From Alphaproteobacteria bacterium (lineage in GTDB: Bacteria > Pseudomonadota > Alphaproteobacteria > Rhizobiales > Beijerinckiaceae): 33,035 bases of DNA. The DNA is taken from the NCBI GenBank assembly GCA_016869555.1, contig VGDY01000020.1, forward strand, positions 1 through 33,035. The letters are read 5' to 3'. Under the pieces are notes generated by a model. The model was not told where the DNA came from. It saw only the letters and a list, made by a program, of their open reading frames with translations, and did no database searches. How positions within the stretch are numbered: the first letter of the stretch is position 1; each line of letters begins with the position of its first letter. This document shows, one piece after another, positions 6,186 to 17,030 of the stretch. A program made the translations under genes and the position numbers.

Positions 6186-8159
6186 ATGAACGTCGCCGCG
6201 CGCATTGACGATCATTTCACCGCCGTGTCGACCGAAGCGCTCGAGGCGAGCATCGACAACGCCAAGGGCGCGCTGCTGTCGCTGCGCAAGACCGGCGGAC
6301 ATTTCTGCTTCGAACTCGAAGCCGACACCACCATTCCCGCCGAATATGTGCTGATGCGCCATTTCCGCGCCGAGCCGGTCGACGCCGAACTCGAACGCAA
6401 GATCGGCGTTTACCTGCGCCGCTGCCAGGGCGACCACGGCGGCTGGCCGCTGTTTCAGGACGGGCGCTTCAACATAAGCGCCAGCGTCAAGGCTTACTTC
6501 GCGCTCAAGATGATCGGCGACGACGTTGAGGCGCCGCATATGGCGCGCGCCCGCGCGGCGATCCTCGCCTATGGCGGCGCAGCGAAGAGCAACGTCTTTA
6601 CCCGCGCGCTGCTGGCGCTTTACGGCGAAATTCCCTGGCGCGGCGTGCCGGTGATGCCTGTCGAAATCATGCTGCTGCCGAAATGGTTTCCCTTCCACCT
6701 CGATAAAATCTCCTACTGGGGCCGCACGGTTCTCGTGCCGCTGCTGGTGCTGATGACGAAAAAGCCGCGCGCGAAGAACCCCAGGAACGTCCACATTCCC
6801 GAACTCTTCGCGACGCCGCCGGAAGAAGTGAAGGTCTGGCCGAAAGGCGAACACCAGACCTGGCCCTGGGCCCATATTTTCGGCGAGGTCGACAGGCTGC
6901 TGCGTTTGATCGAGCCGCACATGCCCAAGGGGCCGCGCGAACACGCGATCGAACTTGCCGAGAAATGGACCACCGAGCGCCTGAATGGCGTCGACGGCCT
7001 CGGCGCGATCTTTCCATCGATGGTCAACAGCCTGCTGATGTATGACGCGCTCGGCGTCTCTGACGACGATACGCGCAAGAAGCTGGCGCGCGAGTCGATC
7101 GAGCGACTGCTCGTCGTCAATGAGACGGAAGCCTATTGCCAGCCCTGCGTCTCGCCGGTGTGGGACACATGTCTGGCGGCGCATGCGCTGATTGAAACCG
7201 GCGACGAAGACGCGCGCGACGCCGCCCGCGCGGCCTGCGAATGGCTCGCGCCCTTGCAGGCGCTCGACGTGAAGGGCGACTGGGCGGCGCAGCGGCCTGA
7301 CCTGCGGCCCGGAGGATGGGCGTTCCAATACGCCAACGCCTATTATCCGGACGTCGACGACACCGCTGTCGTCGTCACCGCGATGGATCGACTGACGGCG
7401 AATGACGCGTCCCGGCCTTATGACGAACGCATCGCCCGCGCCAAGGAGTGGATCGTCGGCATGCAGTCGAAAAACGGCGGCTGGGGCGCCTTCGACGCCG
7501 ACAATACTTACGATTATCTCAACCACATCCCCTTCGCCGATCATGGCGCGCTGCTCGATCCGCCGACGGCCGACGTGTCGGCGCGCTGCGTCTCGATGCT
7601 GGCGCAGCTCGGCGACACGATCGACACAAGCGACTGTCTCAAGCGCGGCGTCGATTATCTCATCAAGGAGCAGGAGAAGGACGGCAGCTGGTTCGGCCGC
7701 TGGGGCGCGAATTACATCTACGGGACCTGGTCGACGCTGTGCGCGCTCAACGCCGCCGGCTTGCCGCATGATCATGGCGCCTATCGTCGCGCCGTCGACT
7801 GGCTCGCCGCGATTCAGAACGACGACGGCGGCTGGGGCGAGGACCTTTCAAGCTACAGGCTGGATTACAAGGGCTATGAGCAGGCTCCCTCGACGGCGTC
7901 GCAAACCGCCTGGGCGCTGCTCGGGCTGATGGCCGCCGGCGAAATCGACCATCCGGCCGTGGCAAAGGGGATCGCCTATCTGCAAGCAACGCAAAACGAC
8001 AGCGGGCTGTGGAGCGAGGCGCGATTCACCGCCACGGGTTTTCCGCGCGTCTTCTATCTGCGCTATCATGGCTATGGAAAATTCTTCCCGCTCTGGGCGC
8101 TGGCGCGCTACCGCAATCTGCGACGCGCCAACAGCAGACGCGTGCAGGCTGGGCTTTAA
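6186..8159 (+). CDS. shc: Squalene-hopene cyclase
   Basis: Cyclises squalene to hopene (and diplopterol), a membrane-bound step at the centre of the hopanoid route. The 657-residue length fits the family. The acid motif DVDDTA is at residues 389-394; the second Asp (391) matches the proton donor of characterised cyclases. QW-type repeats are seen, for example QGDHGGWPLF near 80, QSKNGGWGAF near 430, KDGSWFGRWG, NDDGGWGED and TQNDSGLWSEA toward the C terminus. An ATG six codons earlier (6168) is open, but AAGGA at 6175-6179 sits seven bases before the 6186 ATG and favours the latter. hpnG follows after 39 bp. Confidence 0.96.
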   Translation: MNVAARIDDHFTAVSTEALEASIDNAKGALLSLRKTGGHFCFELEADTTIPAEYVLMRHFRAEPVDAELERKIGVYLRRCQGDHGGWPLFQDGRFNISASVKAYFALKMIGDDVEAPHMARARAAILAYGGAAKSNVFTRALLALYGEIPWRGVPVMPVEIMLLPKWFPFHLDKISYWGRTVLVPLLVLMTKKPRAKNPRNVHIPELFATPPEEVKVWPKGEHQTWPWAHIFGEVDRLLRLIEPHMPKGPREHAIELAEKWTTERLNGVDGLGAIFPSMVNSLLMYDALGVSDDDTRKKLARESIERLLVVNETEAYCQPCVSPVWDTCLAAHALIETGDEDARDAARAACEWLAPLQALDVKGDWAAQRPDLRPGGWAFQYANAYYPDVDDTAVVVTAMDRLTANDASRPYDERIARAKEWIVGMQSKNGGWGAFDADNTYDYLNHIPFADHGALLDPPTADVSARCVSMLAQLGDTIDTSDCLKRGVDYLIKEQEKDGSWFGRWGANYIYGTWSTLCALNAAGLPHDHGAYRRAVDWLAAIQNDDGGWGEDLSSYRLDYKGYEQAPSTASQTAWALLGLMAAGEIDHPAVAKGIAYLQATQNDSGLWSEARFTATGFPRVFYLRYHGYGKFFPLWALARYRNLRRANSRRVQAGL

Positions 8160-8198
8160 AAAATCTTAAGCGACGGATGCGGCGCGAGCGGAGGAACG

Positions 8199-8930
8199 AT
8201 GACGCGCGACATTAGCCGCAGACGGACCGCAAAGCTCGACGCCCTCGCGCCGATCCTCGTCATCGTCGGCATGAAGCGCGAGGCGGGTTGCGCCGCGGGC
8301 GAAGGCGTCACGACGCTGTGCAGCGGCGCGGATGTGGCGCGTCTTCGGCGGCAGCTCGACGCGCTTGAGGGAACGGACTTCTCCGCCGTCGTCAGCTTCG
8401 GACTGGCCGGCGGCCTCGATCATGCGCTGCGGCCGGGCCATGTCGTGGTTGCGGACGCCGTCGTCTCGGGAGAGTCGCGTCGCGACACCCATTCACGGCT
8501 CTCGTCGGCGCTGATGAAAGGCGCTGGCGCCGCAGGCTGCAGCGTCTCGCAAGGCGCCATCATCGGCGTCGACGAACCAGCCATGCACCCAGCCGCCAAG
8601 GCGGCGCTGCGCGAAAGCGCGCAAGCGGTCGCCGTCGACATGGAATCGCATCTCGCTGAAGAATTCGCGCGGCGGCGCAATGTCCCTTTCGTCGCGATTC
8701 GCGCGATCAGCGATCCCGCGGCGCGGGCGCTGCCGCCGCTGGTCGCCAGGGCGCTGACGCCCGAAGGCGACATACATACGTGGGGAGTCGCGCGCGAACT
8801 CATCCGCAGGCCGGGTCAGCTCGGCGGAATGATCCGCGCCGGCCTCGACTCGCGCGCCGCCTTCGGTTCGCTAGGCCGCTGTGGACCGCTGCTGGGCCCG
8901 TTGCTGCGCCTCATGCTCGCGGAGCTCTGA
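8199..8930 (+). CDS. hpnG: Hopanoid-associated phosphorylase HpnG
   Basis: Nucleoside phosphorylase-family protein of 243 residues that removes adenine from adenosylhopane, leading to ribosylhopane. It contains VSFGLAGGLDHALRPGHVVVAD (about residues 66-87), the phosphorylase turn seen in MTA/SAH nucleosidases, and VDMESHLAEEFARRRNVPFVAIRAISDPA (about 146-174), the usual substrate-ribose and base region. GGAGGA precedes the ATG at good spacing. It follows shc in the same direction. Its last 60 bp overlap the 3' end of the convergent hpnH. Confidence 0.92.
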   Translation: MTRDISRRRTAKLDALAPILVIVGMKREAGCAAGEGVTTLCSGADVARLRRQLDALEGTDFSAVVSFGLAGGLDHALRPGHVVVADAVVSGESRRDTHSRLSSALMKGAGAAGCSVSQGAIIGVDEPAMHPAAKAALRESAQAVAVDMESHLAEEFARRRNVPFVAIRAISDPAARALPPLVARALTPEGDIHTWGVARELIRRPGQLGGMIRAGLDSRAAFGSLGRCGPLLGPLLRLMLAEL

Positions 8931-10022
8931 AAGCTTGGCGACATTCTCGTCGAAGACATATTCGGCCGGGCGCTGGTTATCGAGCGAAATGTCCGGCGCC
9001 ATCGGGTCTTCGGTACGTACGCCAAAGAGCGCGACGGCGGCCGCCCGCCAGGGGCGGCGGACCGAATCGGCGACGGCGGTGGCTTCGAAACCGCAATGCA
9101 CCATGCAGTCGGCGCATTTCTCGTAATTGCCGACGCCATAGGCGTCCCAATTGGTCTCCTCCATCAGCTGCTTGAAGGTCGGCACATAGCCTTCGCCGAG
9201 GAGATAGCAGGGACGCTGCCAGCCGAATACGGTGCGCAGCGGCATCCCCCAGGGCGTGCAGCGGTAGCTGACATTGCCGGCGAGAAAATTGAGAAACAGC
9301 CCCGACTGGGTGAAGTCCCAGGCCTTGCCGCCCTTGCCGCGGCGCAGAATGGCGCGGAACAGCTCCTTGGTGCGCGTGCGGTTCAGGAAATGCGTCTGAT
9401 CCGGCGCGCGCTCATAGGCGTAGCCGGGCGAAACCGTCATGCCGTCGACGCCGAGCGCCGTCGTGGCGTCCAGAAACTTGGCGACGCGCTCCGGGTCGGC
9501 GTCGGAGAAGAAGGTGCTGTTGGTGGTGACGCGGAAGCCCTTCGACTTGGCGAGCCTGATCGCCTCGACGGCGCGATCATAGACGCCGTCCTGGCAGACG
9601 GCGCGATCGTGCATTTCCTTGTCGCCGTCGAGATGAATTGACCAGGTGAAATAGGGGCTCGGCTTGAAGAGGTCGATCTTCTTGGCGAGCAACAGCGCAT
9701 TGGTGCAAACGATCGCGAATTTCTTGCGCGCGGTGATCCCTTCGACGATCTGCGGCAGGTCCTTGTGCAGCAGCGGCTCGCCGCCGGCGACCACCACCAC
9801 CGGCGCGCCGCATTCATCGACCGAGCGCAGCGCGTCCTCGACCGACAGCCGCTTGTTGAGAATATGGTCGGGATAGTCGATCTTGCCGCAACCGGCGCAG
9901 GCCAGATTGCAGCGGAAGAGCGGCTCCATCATCAGCACGAGCGGATAGCGCTTGACGCCCATCAGCTGCTGTTTGACAAGATATGCGCCGATTTTCGCGA
10001 CGTAGCGGAACGGAATGGCCAC
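8871..10022 (-). CDS. hpnH: Adenosylhopane synthase HpnH (radical SAM)
   Basis: Radical SAM enzyme that adds a 5'-deoxyadenosyl group to diploptene, the first committed step to extended hopanoids. With the GTG start at 10022 the protein is 383 residues, near the family norm. Cluster cysteines are C38, C42 and C45 in FRCNLACAGCGK (CX3CX2C). VVVVAGGEPLLHKDLP carries the SAM-binding GGEP, and a C-terminal Cys-rich part (KCADCMVHCGFEA) follows. The start is chosen because AAGGGG lies six bases before this GTG and MAIPFRYVAKIGAYL is the family N terminus; the frame stays open to 10118. It points toward hpnG, and the two coding ends overlap by 60 bp. Confidence 0.94.
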   Translation of the reverse strand: MAIPFRYVAKIGAYLVKQQLMGVKRYPLVLMMEPLFRCNLACAGCGKIDYPDHILNKRLSVEDALRSVDECGAPVVVVAGGEPLLHKDLPQIVEGITARKKFAIVCTNALLLAKKIDLFKPSPYFTWSIHLDGDKEMHDRAVCQDGVYDRAVEAIRLAKSKGFRVTTNSTFFSDADPERVAKFLDATTALGVDGMTVSPGYAYERAPDQTHFLNRTRTKELFRAILRRGKGGKAWDFTQSGLFLNFLAGNVSYRCTPWGMPLRTVFGWQRPCYLLGEGYVPTFKQLMEETNWDAYGVGNYEKCADCMVHCGFEATAVADSVRRPWRAAAVALFGVRTEDPMAPDISLDNQRPAEYVFDENVAKLSELREHEAQQRAQQRSTAA

Positions 10023-10859: not shown

Positions 10860-11048
10860 ATGAACAGCCGGCAGGCCAGGCGGTATCTCGCCAAGAAGGG
10901 CGCGACGTTCTCTTCCGGCAAGGGCGGACATCTTCACGTCACGCTCAACGGCAAGCGCTCGGTTCTGCCGCAGCATGGCGGATCGAAAGAGATTCCCAAG
11001 GGGCTCTGGCTTTCGATCCTCAAACAGCTCGGCATAGAGGACAAATGA
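10860..11048 (+). CDS. hicA: HicA-family mRNA interferase toxin
   Basis: A 62-residue protein with the double-stranded RNA-binding-like HicA fold. NSRQARRYLAKKGATFSSGKGGHLHVTL carries the conserved catalytic His region (GGHLHV, near residues 22-27), and the end PKGLWLSILKQLGI is the family C terminus. HicA cleaves mRNA and is neutralised by HicB. The ATG has no ribosome site, and the predicted transcription start is at the ATG, so the mRNA may be leaderless. The stop overlaps the hicB start in an ATGA. Confidence 0.88.
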   Translation: MNSRQARRYLAKKGATFSSGKGGHLHVTLNGKRSVLPQHGGSKEIPKGLWLSILKQLGIEDK

Positions 11049-11467
11049 TCATGCGCTACGCCGTCACGCTCACCAAGGACGGAGACGCAATTTCCGTCCG
11101 CGTTCCCGATATTCCGGAAGCCCTCACCTATGGCCAGGATCGCGACGACGCGCTGGCGCGCGCGGCCGACGCGATCGAGACCGCGATCATGGGATATATG
11201 GCCGCGCGCGAAGACATTCCGGCGCCGAAAGCGAAGGGTCGGGCCTATGTCGCGCTGCCCGCTCTTTCGGCGGCGAAGATCGAACTCTATTCGGCGATGC
11301 GCGCCGGCGGCGTCGGCAAGGCGGCGCTCGCCAGAAGGCTCGGCGTCGCCCTGCCGCAAGTCGACCGGCTGCTCGATCTTCGCCACGCCTCGCGACTCGA
11401 CGCGATCGAGCGCGCCTTCGCGGCGCTAGGCAAGAGCATCAGCATCGCGGTCAGCGACGCCGCTTAA
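11045..11467 (+). CDS. hicB: HicB-family antitoxin with C-terminal HTH
   Basis: A 140-residue antitoxin. Residues 1-60 form the degraded RNase H-like HicB domain (RYAVTLTKDGDAISVRVPDIPEALTYG, then DALARAADAIETAIMGYMAAREDIPAP). The C terminus (about 85-137) has a helix-turn-helix, VGKAALARRLGVALPQVDRLL. It should bind HicA and also the two operators before hicA. Translation starts within the hicA stop (ATGA); another in-frame ATG two codons later is possible. Confidence 0.88.
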   Translation: MIMRYAVTLTKDGDAISVRVPDIPEALTYGQDRDDALARAADAIETAIMGYMAAREDIPAPKAKGRAYVALPALSAAKIELYSAMRAGGVGKAALARRLGVALPQVDRLLDLRHASRLDAIERAFAALGKSISIAVSDAA

Positions 11468-11587: not shown

Positions 11588-11632
11588 ATGCGCGGCCGGC
11601 CGGGTTCAGCGTCAAGAGCGTCGGCGCGATGA
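11588..11632 (+). CDS. Possible 14-residue leader peptide coupled to the next gene
   Basis: A short frame with AAAGGGAG (11576-11582) five bases before its ATG. It encodes 14 residues rich in Arg, Ser, Ala and Gly and stops with the TGA of an ATGA that contains the start of the 734-residue gene. The downstream ATG itself has no ribosome site, so the short frame may deliver ribosomes to it by coupling. Expression is not shown; it is an inference from spacing. Confidence 0.4.
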   Translation: MRGRPGSASRASAR

Positions 11633-13833
11633 CAGCCTCCCAGCAGCAGGCCCGCGCGCCCGATTCGGCGCCGCCCCGACGCGGCTTCGGTCTTTTCGAC
11701 GCGCTCGCGTCGCCGCTCGTGCGCTTGTGGCGGGGCGATCTCAACCTCGGCCGAATCGGCATGGCCGCCGCCCTGCCGGTCCTCGCCTGGGTCTTCTACA
11801 CGACCTCCTCCGGCATGATCGACATCATGCAGAAGGAGCCCGGCGACATGATCGGGATCGCCGGCACGCTGATCGCGACGACCGCCGTCCTCACCATGCT
11901 CGCGGCGACGTCCTGGTCGCTCGGCGTCGATCTCGCCGCGCTCATCGCGCGGCGGCGGATGGCGCGCGAACGGGTGATCATCAAGACCGCCGTGACCGCT
12001 CTGGTCTTCATCTTCGTCTTCTCGATCTCCGTCTTTTTTTCCTTCACCTTTTACTACAACAATATTTTCAAGCTCTCTTCCCGCAAGATCGTCGCCGAAC
12101 TGCAGCCGATGGAGTTCGCGACCGAATTGATTCTGCCGGCGACAAAGGAAATCGCCGCCGCCTACGACGCCGCCTCGTCGCGCATCGCCGAGACCCCAAG
12201 CTACAAGACTTATCTCTCATCGATCGACGGTCTCATCGACACCGCGCGTCAGGCGGGGCCGGCGCTGCGCGAGGCCATTCGCAAACGTCAGGAGGCGCAG
12301 CTGGCGGTGATCGCGCAGGCCGCGAGCCAGGCCGCGGCGGAGTTGGAAAGCGCCCAGGCGGCGATGCGTCAGCTTGAGGACGCACGGCGCGAGATCGAGG
12401 CGCTCGAGCGTAGCATCGCCGCACTCGCCGCCGTGGTTAAGGCGAAACAGGATGAGATGGCGTCCGCGGCCGCCGCCGTGCGCCAGGAAGAACAGCTCGC
12501 CATCGACGCCGAGCACGGACTCGACGGCCTGGGCGCGTCCTGCGGCCCGAACTGCCGCGCGCATCGCGACAAGGCGGCCGAAGCCATGAAACGCGTCACC
12601 GCGCTGCGGCAAACGCTCGCCGGCCCGGCGAACGAACGCGCCAACGCCGTGAAACGGCGTGACGCGCTCACCGCCCAGACGATCACGCTGAAACAGAAAG
12701 CCGAGGCCGCCAGCGCCGCATCGGCGCGGCCGACGCCAAAGAGCGAAGCCACGCTCGATCTCGACGCGACCGTGCGCGATCTCGCCGCGCTGCGCGACCA
12801 ACTGCGGATGGATCCGCGGTGGCGCACGGTGCGCGAAGCGAAGCCCCTGTGCGAACCGATTTTCGCGGCGGCGCGGCAGTCGAACGCCCTGCCGGCAAGC
12901 GTGCCGCACGACTTCACCTGCGAGCCGCAGGGCGAGGCGCGCGATCTGCTCTCCGCGCGCGATGAATCGCTCGCCGCGCGCGCCGCCTTCGACCAAAAAT
13001 GCGGGCTCGAAACCGGGCTGCGGGACGAACTTTCGGCGATCGTCGCCAAAATCCGCGCGGCGCCGGCGTCGGACAAGGCAGCCGCCGCCAACGGCTTCAA
13101 CGACGCGAAAACGCTCATCGACGCCTGCGTCGTCTCCGGCAAGGCGGCCGGTCTCTCCGATGACGAAGTGCGCGAGCTGTTGAAGAAAAGCGACGCCTAT
13201 CTGCGCACGCATAGTTCCGAGCGCAACAAATTCGAACTGGCGCGCGAAGCCTTCTGGAGCTTCACGCCAGACTCGACCATGGCGATCTGCGTCGCCATGG
13301 CGCAGGACGCCTTTCTGTTTATCATGAAATTCCTGTCGGAAATTTTTAAACGCAGCTATGACGCGCGCGAGCGGCGCCAGTTCGCCGCGCCGCTCGATCT
13401 TTCCGACGACGAGGACCAGCCCACCGACGTGCGCGCGATGAAGGCGATCCTGCGCGCGGCGCGTCCGGTGCATGGCGACATGAGCGAAATCGCGCCCGAG
13501 GCGGAAGCAATTTCGGCGCTGCCGCCCAATGTGCATGACAATGTCGTCGCCATCCTCAATCGACTCGTGCGCGACGAAATCGCTCATGTCGACCGCAAGG
13601 GCGCCTATCTCGTCGACAATGTCACGATCGCGCAGATCGAAGCGCGGCTCTTCTCGGCGCTGAAGCCTCGCGCCGCCCGCGCCTTGCAGCGCGCCGCCGA
13701 CGGCGCAGCCAATGGTCCGCGCGCCTATTACTCGGACGCCGGCGCCGCCAATCTTCCGCGCCGTCGCTGCGGCGCGCTCGAGCGCTATCTGATCGCCGAG
13801 ACGGGGCCGATGGACAGGCGTCCGTCAGCGTAG
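11629..13833 (+). CDS. Large membrane coiled-coil protein, unknown
   Basis: Not recognised as a named family. The 734-residue protein has three hydrophobic helices at about residues 43-60, 75-96 and 117-142. A long Ala/Glu/Gln/Arg-rich region at about 160-545 follows, with strong coiled-coil character around 210-290 and again near 370-400, and a CGPNC pair near 305. A fourth hydrophobic helix lies at about 545-570 (STMAICVAMAQDAFLFIMKFL). The C-terminal 160 residues are soluble, and about 600-680 could be a small winged-helix-like domain. This predicts a membrane anchor with a large coiled-coil part on one side and a soluble tail on the other. It ends two bases from the convergent GAP1-like gene. 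Confidence 0.75.
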   Translation: MTASQQQARAPDSAPPRRGFGLFDALASPLVRLWRGDLNLGRIGMAAALPVLAWVFYTTSSGMIDIMQKEPGDMIGIAGTLIATTAVLTMLAATSWSLGVDLAALIARRRMARERVIIKTAVTALVFIFVFSISVFFSFTFYYNNIFKLSSRKIVAELQPMEFATELILPATKEIAAAYDAASSRIAETPSYKTYLSSIDGLIDTARQAGPALREAIRKRQEAQLAVIAQAASQAAAELESAQAAMRQLEDARREIEALERSIAALAAVVKAKQDEMASAAAAVRQEEQLAIDAEHGLDGLGASCGPNCRAHRDKAAEAMKRVTALRQTLAGPANERANAVKRRDALTAQTITLKQKAEAASAASARPTPKSEATLDLDATVRDLAALRDQLRMDPRWRTVREAKPLCEPIFAAARQSNALPASVPHDFTCEPQGEARDLLSARDESLAARAAFDQKCGLETGLRDELSAIVAKIRAAPASDKAAAANGFNDAKTLIDACVVSGKAAGLSDDEVRELLKKSDAYLRTHSSERNKFELAREAFWSFTPDSTMAICVAMAQDAFLFIMKFLSEIFKRSYDARERRQFAAPLDLSDDEDQPTDVRAMKAILRAARPVHGDMSEIAPEAEAISALPPNVHDNVVAILNRLVRDEIAHVDRKGAYLVDNVTIAQIEARLFSALKPRAARALQRAADGAANGPRAYYSDAGAANLPRRRCGALERYLIAETGPMDRRPSA

Positions 13834-13835
13834 CA

Positions 13836-14654
13836 TCAAGCGGCGACCGAGGTCCGAGCCGCCGCCCGCAGCGACGGCAGATAGCGCAGGCAAAGGCCCT
13901 GCGACTCATGACGCAAGCCGGAAACGACGCAGATCTCGCGCCAGCGCGGATAGCTCGCCGGCAGGAATTGCAGCGCGAGACCGACGGCCCTGAGAAACGC
14001 CGCTTCGCTTGCGAAATCGTCGGCGCCGTAGGTCAGCGTCGCGTCTTCGCCGGTTTCGGCGCCGCGCGCCAGAAATTCCAAGGTCGGGGCCGCCCAGTGC
14101 GACTTGTCGAGCGCGTCCTCGAGCGCGCCCCAGACGTCCTGCGGATCAAGCATGCGCACGACATAGCGCGCCGGCGCGGCGCTGAAGCGCACGCACTCGG
14201 CTTCGCTCGCCAAGTCTGGAAGCGCCTCAAGCTCGGAGCCCGCCATGGCGAGCAGCGCCGCCGGATGTCGCCGCCAATCGGAAGCGGCCACGCTCCACAC
14301 GGCGCTCTGCTGATAGAGGCGCCCGTGGCCATCTTCTCCGTCCTCAGGGCGAAACCGGGCGCGCAAAAAGATCGCGCGGCGCGAATCCGGCTCGGGCGAA
14401 ACGCGCGCGAGAAAGGCGCCGCGGCGGCGCGCGCCGGGATCGACCAGATCGGGTTCGAATCGGCGCAGCGCCATGAGCCGCGGCGGCGAGAGCAGCCGGT
14501 CGTCGGACGCCTGTAAATTGTGGCTGCGCAGAGTCACGCCATAGCCTGCCGCCGCCGGAACGCTCAACGTCGCGCCAGAAGCGAGCTTTCCATAGTGCAG
14601 CCGTTCAAGAGAGACTTCGGCCGTCTGATCGGCTTGCGGGACCGCCGGATGCAT
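13836..14654 (-). CDS. GAP1-like (GTPase-associated protein 1 N-terminal) protein
   Basis: A 272-residue soluble protein. LERLHYGKLASGATLSVPAA near residues 16-35, and a later DGHGRLYQQSAVWSV, resemble the start and core of the GTPase-associated protein 1 N-terminal domains, which Pfam describes from predicted bacterial NTP-dependent conflict systems. I judge this by motif memory only; the similarity is modest. AAAGGA precedes the ATG by six bases. A P-loop GTPase of the kind that partners such proteins lies 1.3 kb away, and a membrane coiled-coil gene converges on it, so a shared role is plausible. The function of the family is not established by experiment as far as I know. Confidence 0.5.
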   Translation of the reverse strand: MHPAVPQADQTAEVSLERLHYGKLASGATLSVPAAAGYGVTLRSHNLQASDDRLLSPPRLMALRRFEPDLVDPGARRRGAFLARVSPEPDSRRAIFLRARFRPEDGEDGHGRLYQQSAVWSVAASDWRRHPAALLAMAGSELEALPDLASEAECVRFSAAPARYVVRMLDPQDVWGALEDALDKSHWAAPTLEFLARGAETGEDATLTYGADDFASEAAFLRAVGLALQFLPASYPRWREICVVSGLRHESQGLCLRYLPSLRAAARTSVAA

Positions 14655-14751
14655 CGCCCGTCCTTTCGCGCGGAAAGTGAACGCGTCAGCCTAGCCGCAT
14701 ATCCTTAACCAGGGATTGACGCGCAGACGATTGGTTCAGCGGCGAGCATTG

Positions 14752-14779
14752 TTGACGTCTAGACGTCTTTCGATAAGAT
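14752..14779 (+). promoter_or_regulatory. Promoter with perfect palindrome before the methyltransferase gene
   Basis: TTGACG (14752-14757) and TAAGAT (14774-14779), 16 bases apart, form a plausible promoter. GACGTCTAGACGTC at 14754-14767 is a perfect 14-bp palindrome overlapping the -35 and spacer, as expected for a repressor site. The gap is shared with the divergent GAP1-like gene, so one site could control both. Confidence 0.55.
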
Positions 14780-14806
14780 CGCCGCCATCACCGGGAGACG
14801 GCGAAG

Positions 14807-15916
14807 ATGCATGACCGCGGAGCAATCAGAGACGCCGTCATCGACTGTCTGCGCGATATGGGCCGCGACGCGCCAATCGACGAAATCGTCGGAGCGGTAA
14901 CCGCGCGGCATGGCGCTGTCCCGCATTCTTCCGTGCGGTCCTACCTCAACCTCAATACGCCGGCGCTTTTTGAACGAACAGGTCGCGGCCGTTACCGGCT
15001 GCGCGGCGTCGCCGCCGTCGAATGCGCACCAATCGAATCGAGCGCGCAAATCGATCGCGCGACGCTCTACCACGCCGACGCATTCGGCTGGCTCGCCGCG
15101 CAGCCGCCAAAATCCATTCACGCCGTCGTGACCGATCCGCCTTACGGGATCGTGGAATATAGCGCCAAGGAGAAGGCGAAACTTCGCGAAGGAAGGGGCG
15201 GCGTCTGGCGAATCCCGCCTTCCTTCGACGGACACAAACGCGCGCCGCTCCCAAGATTTACCGTTCTATCCAGCGACGATCACAAGGCGCTCGCCTCGTT
15301 CTTTCGTCGTCTCGGAACGCTCCTCCTTCGCACATGCGTTCCGGGTGCGAATATCATTGTGGCGTCCAATCCGCTGCTCTCGCATATCGTCGCAAGCGCC
15401 ATGAGCGAGACTGGGCTCGAGCTGCGGGGCTACATCGCCCGCCAGGTGATGACGATGCGCGGCGGCGACCGCCCCAAGAACGCCCACCAGGAATTTGCCG
15501 GGGTGAGCGTCATGCCGAGATCGCAATGGGAGCCGTGGGTGGTCCTGCGCACGCCTCTGGACGGCCGCGTCCAGGACAATCTGCGCCATTATGGCGTCGG
15601 CGGCTTCCGCCGGCTCTCAGCGGACAAGCCATTTGGCGACATGATCCGTTCCCATCCGACGCCAGCGAAAGAGAAGAAAATCGCGCCGCATCCGAGCCTG
15701 AAGCCGCAGGCTTTCATGCGTTCGATCGTGCGCGCGTCTCTGCCGCTCGAGACCGGGATCATTTGCGATCCCTTCGCGGGCGCCGGCGCGACGCTCGCCG
15801 CTGCGAACGCCGTCGGCTATGCGTCCGTCGGCGTGGAGATCGATCGCGACTATTACAATCTTGCGCTTGCAAGCGTGCCGCGTCTCACCGCGCTCAAGGT
15901 TGAACAGGAGAGATAG
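14807..15916 (+). CDS. DNA methyltransferase (N6-adenine/N4-cytosine type) with N-terminal winged helix
   Basis: A 369-residue modification methyltransferase. The catalytic motif DPPYG is at residues 110-114 and the SAM-binding motif DPFAGAGAT at 321-329. The order, with DPPY before FxGxG, is that of beta-class amino-methyltransferases. Residues 1-65 look like a small winged-helix domain of the HARE-HTH kind (RDAVIDCLRDMGRDAPIDEIVGA..., then SSVRSYLN and RGRYRLRG). The target site cannot be read from sequence. No restriction nuclease gene is adjacent, so it is either a solitary methylase or tied to its neighbours, the GAP1-like and GTPase genes, which flank it on the opposite strand. Confidence 0.85.
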   Translation: MHDRGAIRDAVIDCLRDMGRDAPIDEIVGAVTARHGAVPHSSVRSYLNLNTPALFERTGRGRYRLRGVAAVECAPIESSAQIDRATLYHADAFGWLAAQPPKSIHAVVTDPPYGIVEYSAKEKAKLREGRGGVWRIPPSFDGHKRAPLPRFTVLSSDDHKALASFFRRLGTLLLRTCVPGANIIVASNPLLSHIVASAMSETGLELRGYIARQVMTMRGGDRPKNAHQEFAGVSVMPRSQWEPWVVLRTPLDGRVQDNLRHYGVGGFRRLSADKPFGDMIRSHPTPAKEKKIAPHPSLKPQAFMRSIVRASLPLETGIICDPFAGAGATLAAANAVGYASVGVEIDRDYYNLALASVPRLTALKVEQER

Positions 15917-15928
15917 AGACGTCTCCTG
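15905..15928 (+). terminator. Stem-loop over the methyltransferase stop codon
   Basis: CAGGAGA (15905-15911) pairs with TCTCCTG (15922-15928). The interior also holds the palindrome GAGACGTCTC (15916-15925), so two folds compete. It spans the stop codon and has no T run, so termination is possible but weakly supported. Confidence 0.35.
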
Positions 15929-15964
15929 CTCCGGCCAGAATGAATCGGCTTTTTCAATGCCCGT

Positions 15965-16945
15965 TTACGCGATCCCCTCCTGGCGCGCATCGAGCTGCGC
16001 GTAAGAGAAGGTGAAGGCGCTGTCGTGCCCGAGCGCCGCGTAAAGAAACGGCTCGGCGGTGAGAAACGGCCGCCAATATTCATTATAGGCGCGGGCGCCC
16101 TCGAGTCCGGCGCGGCGAAACCGGCGCTCGCCGGGCTGATGCGGATCGATGTTGGGATTTTGAAAGCGCTTGACGAAGCCATAGGCCGAGCACACCGTGA
16201 AGCGCACTGATACGCCGCCGCCGTTGGGCGCCTCCAGGGCGCGCAGCCGGTCCAGCCATTGCACGCCGCGCAGCGATTTGCGCAGGACGTGCAGCGCGAC
16301 CGCAGGATCGCAGGCGTAGGTGAAGGCGCTCGGCCCGAGCCGCGCGAATAATCGCTCATATTGCGAGAAGACGACGACGAGGCGCTTCAGCTTCTTTTCC
16401 GGGGCGAGCGCCAGCCGGTCGATCAGGCGCGCGAGATTGCCCGACCAGCCGGAATCCTCGAGCCGCACCAGCGGCAAGACGAGGATGATCGCCTCCGAGT
16501 CGAGCATCTGCTTGGCGAGCTTCGCTTTGACGTCGTTCAGGATCGCCACTTCGGCGCCGTCCGGCGGCACGGCGATCTCGCCCGCCGAATCGATGATCTC
16601 CAGCAGCCAGGGTCCGCGCAAAACGACCGCCGGCGGCGCCTCGCCATTCACCGTCAGGCGGAAGCGATATTCATAGGTGTCGAGCGTATCGGTGGCGACG
16701 CCGCCCTCGGCGAAGTCCCGCCGCAGCCGCTCATAGTCGCCCCGTTCGACCGTGAGCAGATCGGCCTTCTTCGGTTCGACGCCCTCGCCATAGAATTCCG
16801 CTTCGGTGACGGGCTGCAGCGCCGGTCGCAGGCGCGGCGAATAGCCGAAGGCGCTCTGCGCGACGCAATCGACGAGCGAGGCGAGCAGCGACGACTTGCC
16901 GCCCTTCTTGGGGCCGATGAGACAGATCGACAGTCTTTCGGTCAT
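15965..16945 (-). CDS. P-loop GTPase of the DO-GTPase-like type
   Basis: A 326-residue soluble nucleotide-binding protein. The P loop is GPKKGGKSS at residues 11-19. A switch II-like DSAG lies at 119-122 in LLEIIDSAGE. The strand LKRLVVVFSQYERLF (about 186-200) occupies the place of the guanine-specificity strand but lacks a plain TKxD/NKxD. This pattern resembles bacterial double-GTPase (DO-GTPase) families linked to GAP1 proteins. I chose the ATG at 16945, with GAAGG upstream. The frame continues to a TTG at 17023, but that extension is encoded by a palindromic repeat. No membrane segment is visible. Confidence 0.65.
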   Translation of the reverse strand: MTERLSICLIGPKKGGKSSLLASLVDCVAQSAFGYSPRLRPALQPVTEAEFYGEGVEPKKADLLTVERGDYERLRRDFAEGGVATDTLDTYEYRFRLTVNGEAPPAVVLRGPWLLEIIDSAGEIAVPPDGAEVAILNDVKAKLAKQMLDSEAIILVLPLVRLEDSGWSGNLARLIDRLALAPEKKLKRLVVVFSQYERLFARLGPSAFTYACDPAVALHVLRKSLRGVQWLDRLRALEAPNGGGVSVRFTVCSAYGFVKRFQNPNIDPHQPGERRFRRAGLEGARAYNEYWRPFLTAEPFLYAALGHDSAFTFSYAQLDARQEGIA

Positions 16946-16982
16946 TCGCGCCTTCAACTGATAGGGCCACCGGCGCGCTTTC

Positions 16983-17006
16983 CGATCAGACGGCATCGTC
17001 TGATCG
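16983..17006. repeat. Palindromic element, 10-bp arms
   Basis: CGATCAGACG (16983-16992), spacer GCAT, CGTCTGATCG (16997-17006): a perfect hairpin in the gap between the GTPase gene and prmA. Together with the next hairpin it looks like a compound REP-type element of the kind scattered in Rhizobiales genomes. Confidence 0.7.
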
Positions 17007-17030
17007 ATAAGAAATCGCGCCAAGTTACTG

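Follow-up and report, generated by a model that had tools for sequence, protein, structure and literature searches.

The stretch of DNA considered here (the window, 33,035 nucleotides) is contig C20, GenBank VGDY01000020.1, of a 3.95-Mb alphaproteobacterial assembly of 295 contigs. It carries four neighbouring open reading frames (ORFs) in alternating orientation (+,-,+,-), which encode a 734-amino-acid (aa) membrane protein (memCC), a 272-aa protein (p272), a DNA methyltransferase (MTase) and a 326-aa P-loop protein with GTPase-like motifs (GTPase; Table 1). The listed contamination of the assembly is 8.61%, and the gene context of the window equals that of its relatives. An earlier note on this DNA had described the same arrangement and motifs (LHYG, DGHGRLY, DPPY, a P-loop and the lack of TKxD), all of which are present, and had grouped the four genes into one candidate system. 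Conservation sets METHYLTRANSFERASE (the methyltransferase) apart from the GTPase, p272 and memCC. These three appear to form a module conserved in Methylocystis methanotrophs, probably the genus of the window genome, and a further candidate partner of about 670 aa (p671), which is unlinked and was missed by the earlier note, probably belongs with them.

Table 1. Genes and features of the locus (positions in the window).
Feature	Position	Strand	Description
memCC	11629-13833	+	734-aa membrane protein; N-terminal transmembrane (TM) segments, ~400 residues of coiled-coil character, TM near 551-569, C-terminal domain
p272	13836-14654	-	putative GAP1-N2-like adaptor, 272 aa; GAP1-N2-like part ~residues 12-147
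14-bp perfect palindrome GACGTCTAGACGTC	14754-14767		39 bp before MTase; possible operator
MTase (PF01555)	14807-15916	+	369 aa; apparent orphan of a mobile restriction-modification pair, bystander
GTPase	15965-16945	-	DO-GTPase2-like P-loop NTPase, 326 aa; G1 GPKKGGKSS, G3 DSAGE, decayed G4 SQYE, G5-like SAYGF

Conservation was counted in 39 Methylocystis genomes, including that of the window (G000). The GTPase and memCC are each present in 37 of them and p272 in 33; the GTPase and memCC are both missing from two genomes, whose completeness is 66% and 59%. The membrane coiled-coil gene, which the earlier note had placed with the other genes by position, appears to belong with the GTPase and p272, as its distribution, its neighbourhood and a profile likeness in another family (see below) indicate. 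Where p272 is present (33 genomes), it follows the GTPase gene on the same strand in 27 cases, at a distance of 83-198 bp, and three more keep this order with a restriction-modification (R-M) cassette in between. In the last three (G202, G213 and G215), p272 lies near memCC at distances of 64, 70 and 1620 bp, the longest of which accommodates a single 445-aa ORF in G215. Thus, 30 of 33 genomes have p272 beside the GTPase, and the remaining three have it within 1.7 kb of memCC, which fits the expectation for a linker. Evolutionary distances of the GTPase and p272 correlate at r=0.956 over 26 genomes (26 of 29 loci), compared with 0.876 and 0.928 against PrmA; the pairs are not independent, and the correlation is supportive only. 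Genomes of the family's other genera, as far as listed, lack the GTPase (six of six) as well as p272 and memCC (three of three). Within Methylocystis, the pattern is that of core, vertically inherited genes, which speaks against a typical defence locus.

The MTase follows a different course. It matches PF01555 in Pfam (E=3.3e-15) and carries the motif TDPPYG. Some match at E<=0.001 occurs in 28 of the 39 genomes; close, full-length relatives (90-91% identity) are confined to three, namely the window genome, G225 and G226, and the matches in the others are weak, cover short stretches and concern other methylases. Compared with two cassette-free genomes, the MTase cassette sits within the gap between the GTPase and p272, and the sequence before p272 is nearly letter-identical. 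In G226 and G225, a 203-aa gene lies tail-to-tail with the MTase (L042 4948-5559 and L043 1223-1834, respectively). Its product has no Pfam match, and its pattern GHPDL...GVEIKST resembles the signature of PD-(D/E)xK nucleases, so that it is perhaps a putative, unrecognised endonuclease of that class. This partner gene is absent from the window, where no cognate endonuclease gene, as a Type II R-M system would have, lies beside the MTase. Since only 48 bp separate the ends of the MTase and GTPase ORFs, the partner appears to have been lost there.

Plasmids carry relatives of both members of the pair, in 21 records for the MTase and 20 for the partner, and apart from Microvirga the counts per genus agree. 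Seventeen of the 20 partner records are mobilizable; they come from enterobacteria, Rhizobium, Gordonia and others, and the protein is mostly annotated as hypothetical. A plasmid of Rhizobium sp. N1341 (NZ_CP013506.1) encodes a 'DNA methyltransferase', 66% identical to that of the window, and a 'hypothetical protein' in the same tail-to-tail arrangement as in G226 and G225. The window differs in having the MTase alone, and the Microvirga plasmid has a different neighbour. For the GTPase, p272 and memCC proteins, the window genome is closer to the cassette-free genomes G229 and G230 (94-99% identity) than to G225 and G226 (86-93%). These identities fit an old insertion that was lost stepwise, from the pair to the MTase alone and then to nothing. 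The palindrome GACGTCTAGACGTC before the MTase is matched once in the window, where no match is expected, and of 199 loci compared, those that contain it all come from the three genomes with the MTase. It is perhaps a candidate operator; no perfect palindrome of 10-24 bp lies just before the MTase on the two plasmids examined. Taken together, the MTase looks like the orphaned remnant of a mobile R-M system, a passenger rather than a component of the module, and its proposed role as a system component is not supported.

The GTPase ORF spans 15965-17023 and gives 352 aa when read from its first TTG; in relatives the start is an inner ATG, which gives the 326-aa protein. Among the collected ORFs, those with internal stops or with lengths outside 85-125% and duplicates were excluded, which kept 36 GTPase, 31 p272 and 33 memCC sequences, and the alignments took 21, 20 and 17 of these, respectively. 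The window protein has a P-loop (GPKKGGKSS) and a Walker B motif of the form DxxGE (DSAGE), with its glutamate present in 33 of 39 aligned sequences. The usual G4 motif of GTPases is (N/T)KxD, and the window protein lacks TKxD (VVVFSQYERLF). At this position 26 of 32 genus sequences have SQYE and the other six have variants; outside the genus, it reads TKYE in four relatives of the group g37, TKTE in G670, AMFD in G486 and TKID in G719. Because the canonical TKID occurs in the wider family, the motif appears to have decayed in the genus. In scans of Pfam, PADLOC, NCBIfam and PHROGs, the sole family match of the window protein is a weak one to AAA_25 (E=0.061) at the P-loop. DO-GTPase2 is matched below threshold by eight of 21 family members (best E=0.017), and a profile search of the PDB with the GTPase family gives a best E of 0.14. 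The protein begins ten residues before its P-loop and has cysteines only at 8, 27, 212 and 252; N-terminal zinc ribbons were not found in it. Hydropathy indicates no TM segment in the GTPase, p272 or p671. No GTPase relative was found in plasmids with the window and G486 queries. On sequence alone, the protein is a P-loop NTPase, and its reading as a GTPase rests on motifs.

p272 carries the motifs LHYG and DGHGRLY. The window protein itself has no GAP1 match in Pfam at E<=1 and no family in the four scans named above, whereas five of 20 family members match GAP1-N2 (PF20013) below threshold. The best of these, from relative L026 (E=2.6e-4; 21.5 bits, with the cut-off at 24), is collinear, running from residue 18 to 142 of the protein and from 4 to 128 of the 139 profile positions and beginning at the LHYG motif. 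No other Pfam family matched more than one of the 20 members. The profile relationship suggested in the earlier note has sub-threshold support in relatives, from GAP1-N2 and DO-GTPase2 matches, and none in the window proteins, which match neither at E<=1. GAP1-N2 was not found in 240 genomes of the class, and a p272 relative gave just two plasmid matches, at E 1 and 2. These features suggest that p272 resembles GAP1-N2 and would keep only the GAP1-N part.

Hydropathy places TM segments of memCC at residues 74-92, 121-139 and 551-569; a first segment near 45-62 falls below threshold and is proposed by likeness to the membrane protein of G486. The coiled coil is deduced from weak matches to SMC/Rad50-like models, not from a coil predictor. 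Six cysteines (305, 309, 408, 431, 458 and 500) are invariant in all 17 aligned relatives, and positively charged stretches lie between TM segments 2 and 3 and beyond the last one. By the positive-inside rule, and counting the cysteines, this distribution would put the coil outside the cytoplasm and the tail inside, which would suit a disulphide-stabilised sensor. A profile search of the PDB gave a best E of 0.42. Two family assignments were rejected: memCC is not a member of DUF4407 (PF14362), with which its coil overlaps weakly (E=0.48, scoring 10.1 bits where the cut-off is 31.3), nor an SMC-like protein; its matches in the scans were weak coiled-coil ones. Two genes beside memCC, at window positions 6186-10022, resemble squalene-hopene cyclase and the radical SAM/DUF3463 gene hpnH, respectively; DUF3463 is a Pfam match. 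A hicAB-like toxin-antitoxin pair lies directly before memCC (10860-11467), with a 62-aa HicA-like protein recognised by eye and a 140-aa HicB (PF15919, E=7.1e-7); among the loci searched, the HicB query matched only the window's own locus.

Outside the genus, relatives are rare. The GTPase profile matches two of 367 class genomes, the window genome and G486, and the p272 and memCC profiles match only the former. A single-sequence search with the GTPase added five of 199 genomes of the order, all from one other genus. In G486, which belongs to another family, four consecutive genes encode a 792-aa membrane protein, an 850-aa protein, the GTPase and a 325-aa protein. When the Methylocystis profiles are compared with a set of 460 proteins, the G486 GTPase matches at E=9.4e-28, the p272-like 325-aa protein at 1.9e-6 and the membrane protein at 0.016, with the p272 and memCC candidates having been chosen by position. 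The G486 GTPase matches DO-GTPase2 at E=0.012. In hhalign, memCC and the G486 membrane protein align with 59% probability over the N-terminal membrane part, and in both, TM segments flank a long stretch with several cysteines. Profile comparison relates residues 12-147 of p272 to the GTPase-adjacent genes of G486 and G719 with 95% probability. The GTPase occurs in three of 243 relatives of G486, including G486 itself. In G719, it is followed by a p272-like gene (E=7.6e-6), and a 780-aa protein is related to the 850-aa protein of G486 (E=2.1e-11). In G670, it stands with a divergently transcribed 953-aa gene. The G719 locus (L198 580-6177) has further genes of 1108, 265 and 491 aa beside the GTPase set, and these may be additional components; a TM segment is present in the 265-aa protein.

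A large protein next to the GTPase is a recurrent feature. The GTPase adjoins a protein of 780-974 aa in all four loci read outside the genus (G486, G719, G670 and one of g37, a group of five genomes in which one neighbourhood was read gene by gene). Inside the genus, G199, which lacks p272, has an ORF of 669 aa immediately upstream of the GTPase ORF and overlapping it by 4 bp. Relatives of this protein, p671, match all 39 genus genomes, 38 of them at E 4.8e-70 or better; G231 has a C-terminal match only (E=1.3e-7). The alignment has 17 rows and omits three divergent genomes (L185-L187), where the match has no covering gene call. p671 has no Pfam domain, and in the window genome its gene lies at G000:C3:33694-35706, unlinked to the window genes. 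With the first 45 columns of the p671 alignment as query, the 850-aa protein of G486 is the best entry outside the family (E=0.0071); the G670 (E=5.2) and g37 (E=6.4) entries are noise. The presence of a large protein beside the GTPase inside and outside the genus suggests a common role. By eye, a TIR-domain-like ORF follows p671 in the window genome (L177 8952-10313) and dTDP-rhamnose-like genes precede it; the p671 loci L178 and L181 have other neighbours.

These observations are best explained, at a probability of roughly 0.55, if the GTPase, p272, memCC and probably p671 form one membrane-anchored NTP switch, a split and divergent relative of DO-GTPase/GAP1-N2 systems. GAP1-N2 and its DO-GTPase type are reported to be co-evolving partners (eLife 2020 e52696, PMC7159879), and the appearance of both here, recognised independently, speaks for such a relationship. 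In the proposed mechanism, memCC would sense the state of the envelope via its long, cysteine-bonded extracytoplasmic coiled coil and relay the signal inward to its own cytoplasmic C terminus, where the GTPase-like protein would contact it physically and bind nucleotide as a switch. p272, with only its GAP1-N part, would read this switch and couple the GTPase to p671, which may be a large scaffold or output protein. The base-recognition motif of the GTPase would have decayed from TKxD to SQYE, and guanine specificity may be lost. A tentative extension, possible but distinctly less probable than the switch itself, is that a conflict system was domesticated into a core Methylocystis envelope-surveillance switch, with a split GAP1, scattered components, a cysteine-bonded coil as sensor and lost base specificity. 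The commitment made here is to the shared membrane-linked switch module; whether it serves conflict or the envelope is kept apart from it.

Several results weigh against this interpretation. Four of the 37 GTPase-bearing genomes lack p272 (G199, G212, G220 and G234), and two of these, G199 and G234, are 100% and 98% complete; in seven of 37, memCC and the GTPase are widely separated or lie on different contigs. At G719 a memCC gene was not found, and G670 and, by tblastn, g37 yielded neither memCC nor p272; the p272 profile gave no G486 match in the class genomes, among which G486 was presumably included. The window GTPase has no match to DO-GTPase2 (PF19993; Pfam cut-off 27 bits) at E<=1. Of the stretches that match this family, those examined cover the P-loop only in G486, g37 and G199 and a later part in G670. 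AAA_25 is matched by 13 of 21 GTPase members (best E=0.0095) and AAA_16 by seven (best E=2.3e-4), the latter better than DO-GTPase2. Neither GAP1-M nor GAP1-C was found in p272 or p671, no effector domain was found in p671, and p671 has no significant profile match to the 850- and 780-aa proteins (hhalign probability 0.5%). The predicted structures, for which the near-identical L040 was omitted from the alignments, are weak models (mean pLDDT 52.7 and pTM 0.54 for the GTPase, 64.6 and 0.74 for p272), and Foldseek found no match to either in the PDB at E<=0.001. Finally, zinc ribbons were not found, and memCC, p671 and the large partners examined have no FNIII match at E<=1.

The alternatives account for parts of this evidence. 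The same module could be active in anti-phage defence or another conflict, with an effector supplied by p671 or its relatives. The patchy occurrence of the GTPase outside Methylocystis, in three of 243 G486 relatives and two of 367 class genomes, is what is expected of defence genes, DO-GTPase/GAP1 systems are predicted to act in conflict, and both the R-M pair and the hicAB-like pair entered the same region. We nevertheless consider this unlikely, given that the module is core in Methylocystis with the GTPase beside prmA in most loci examined, that p671 has yielded no effector domain, that PADLOC matches neither the GTPase nor p272 and gives memCC only weak coiled-coil matches, and that no relative occurs among viral contigs. 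Nor is it probable that three unrelated core genes are neighbours by inertia. Such an origin would suit the convergent orientation of memCC and p272 and the fact that the evidence comes mostly from one genus. It would also suit the persistence of old neighbours: where memCC and the GTPase have separated, the GTPase remains with prmA in four of four loci (L144, L146, L148 and L155) and memCC with its hpnH-like neighbour in three of four (L145, L147 and L156, not L149). However, inertia does not explain why the same kinds of genes stand together in G486, a member of another family (where the memCC likeness is weak), why p272 is found near either of two partners, or why all three genes are missing from the listed genomes of the family's other genera. 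A four-gene system that includes the MTase, as the earlier note envisaged, is highly improbable. Position is all that speaks for it, whereas most genomes carry the other three genes without a close MTase, and the MTase sits in the GTPase-p272 gap, which measures 83-198 bp in 27 genomes, and belongs to a plasmid-borne R-M pair. Of the co-occurrence proposed for all four genes, the part concerning the GTPase, p272 and memCC is borne out and that concerning the MTase is not. The case illustrates how a conserved neighbourhood can carry passengers, since the MTase that made this gene set look unusual is an R-M leftover.

DO-GTPase/GAP1 systems are described as conflict systems predicted from sequence, with the Walker B glutamate as a mark of DO-GTPases and N-terminal zinc ribbons as usual in GAP1-N2 systems (eLife 2020 e52696, PMC7159879); another paper mentions the GTPase family in psp operons. 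No experimental paper on these systems was found in the literature searched, nor any paper on the module in Methylocystis, for which the search was only partly by genus name. Like DO-GTPase2/GAP1-N2 systems, the module combines a P-loop protein bearing the Walker B glutamate with a GAP1-N2-like gene downstream, an arrangement that recurs in G486 and G719 and is conditional on the family assignments. It likewise has a membrane component and, in several relatives, a linked large protein. In contrast to those systems, GAP1 is here represented by its N part alone, in a protein of 272 aa, and the genes are core genome, partly dispersed in one genus, with a decayed G4 motif. Such a minimal version, core in a culturable and non-pathogenic genus and having GAP1-N on a small protein of its own, would open the switch mechanism of these systems to direct tests.

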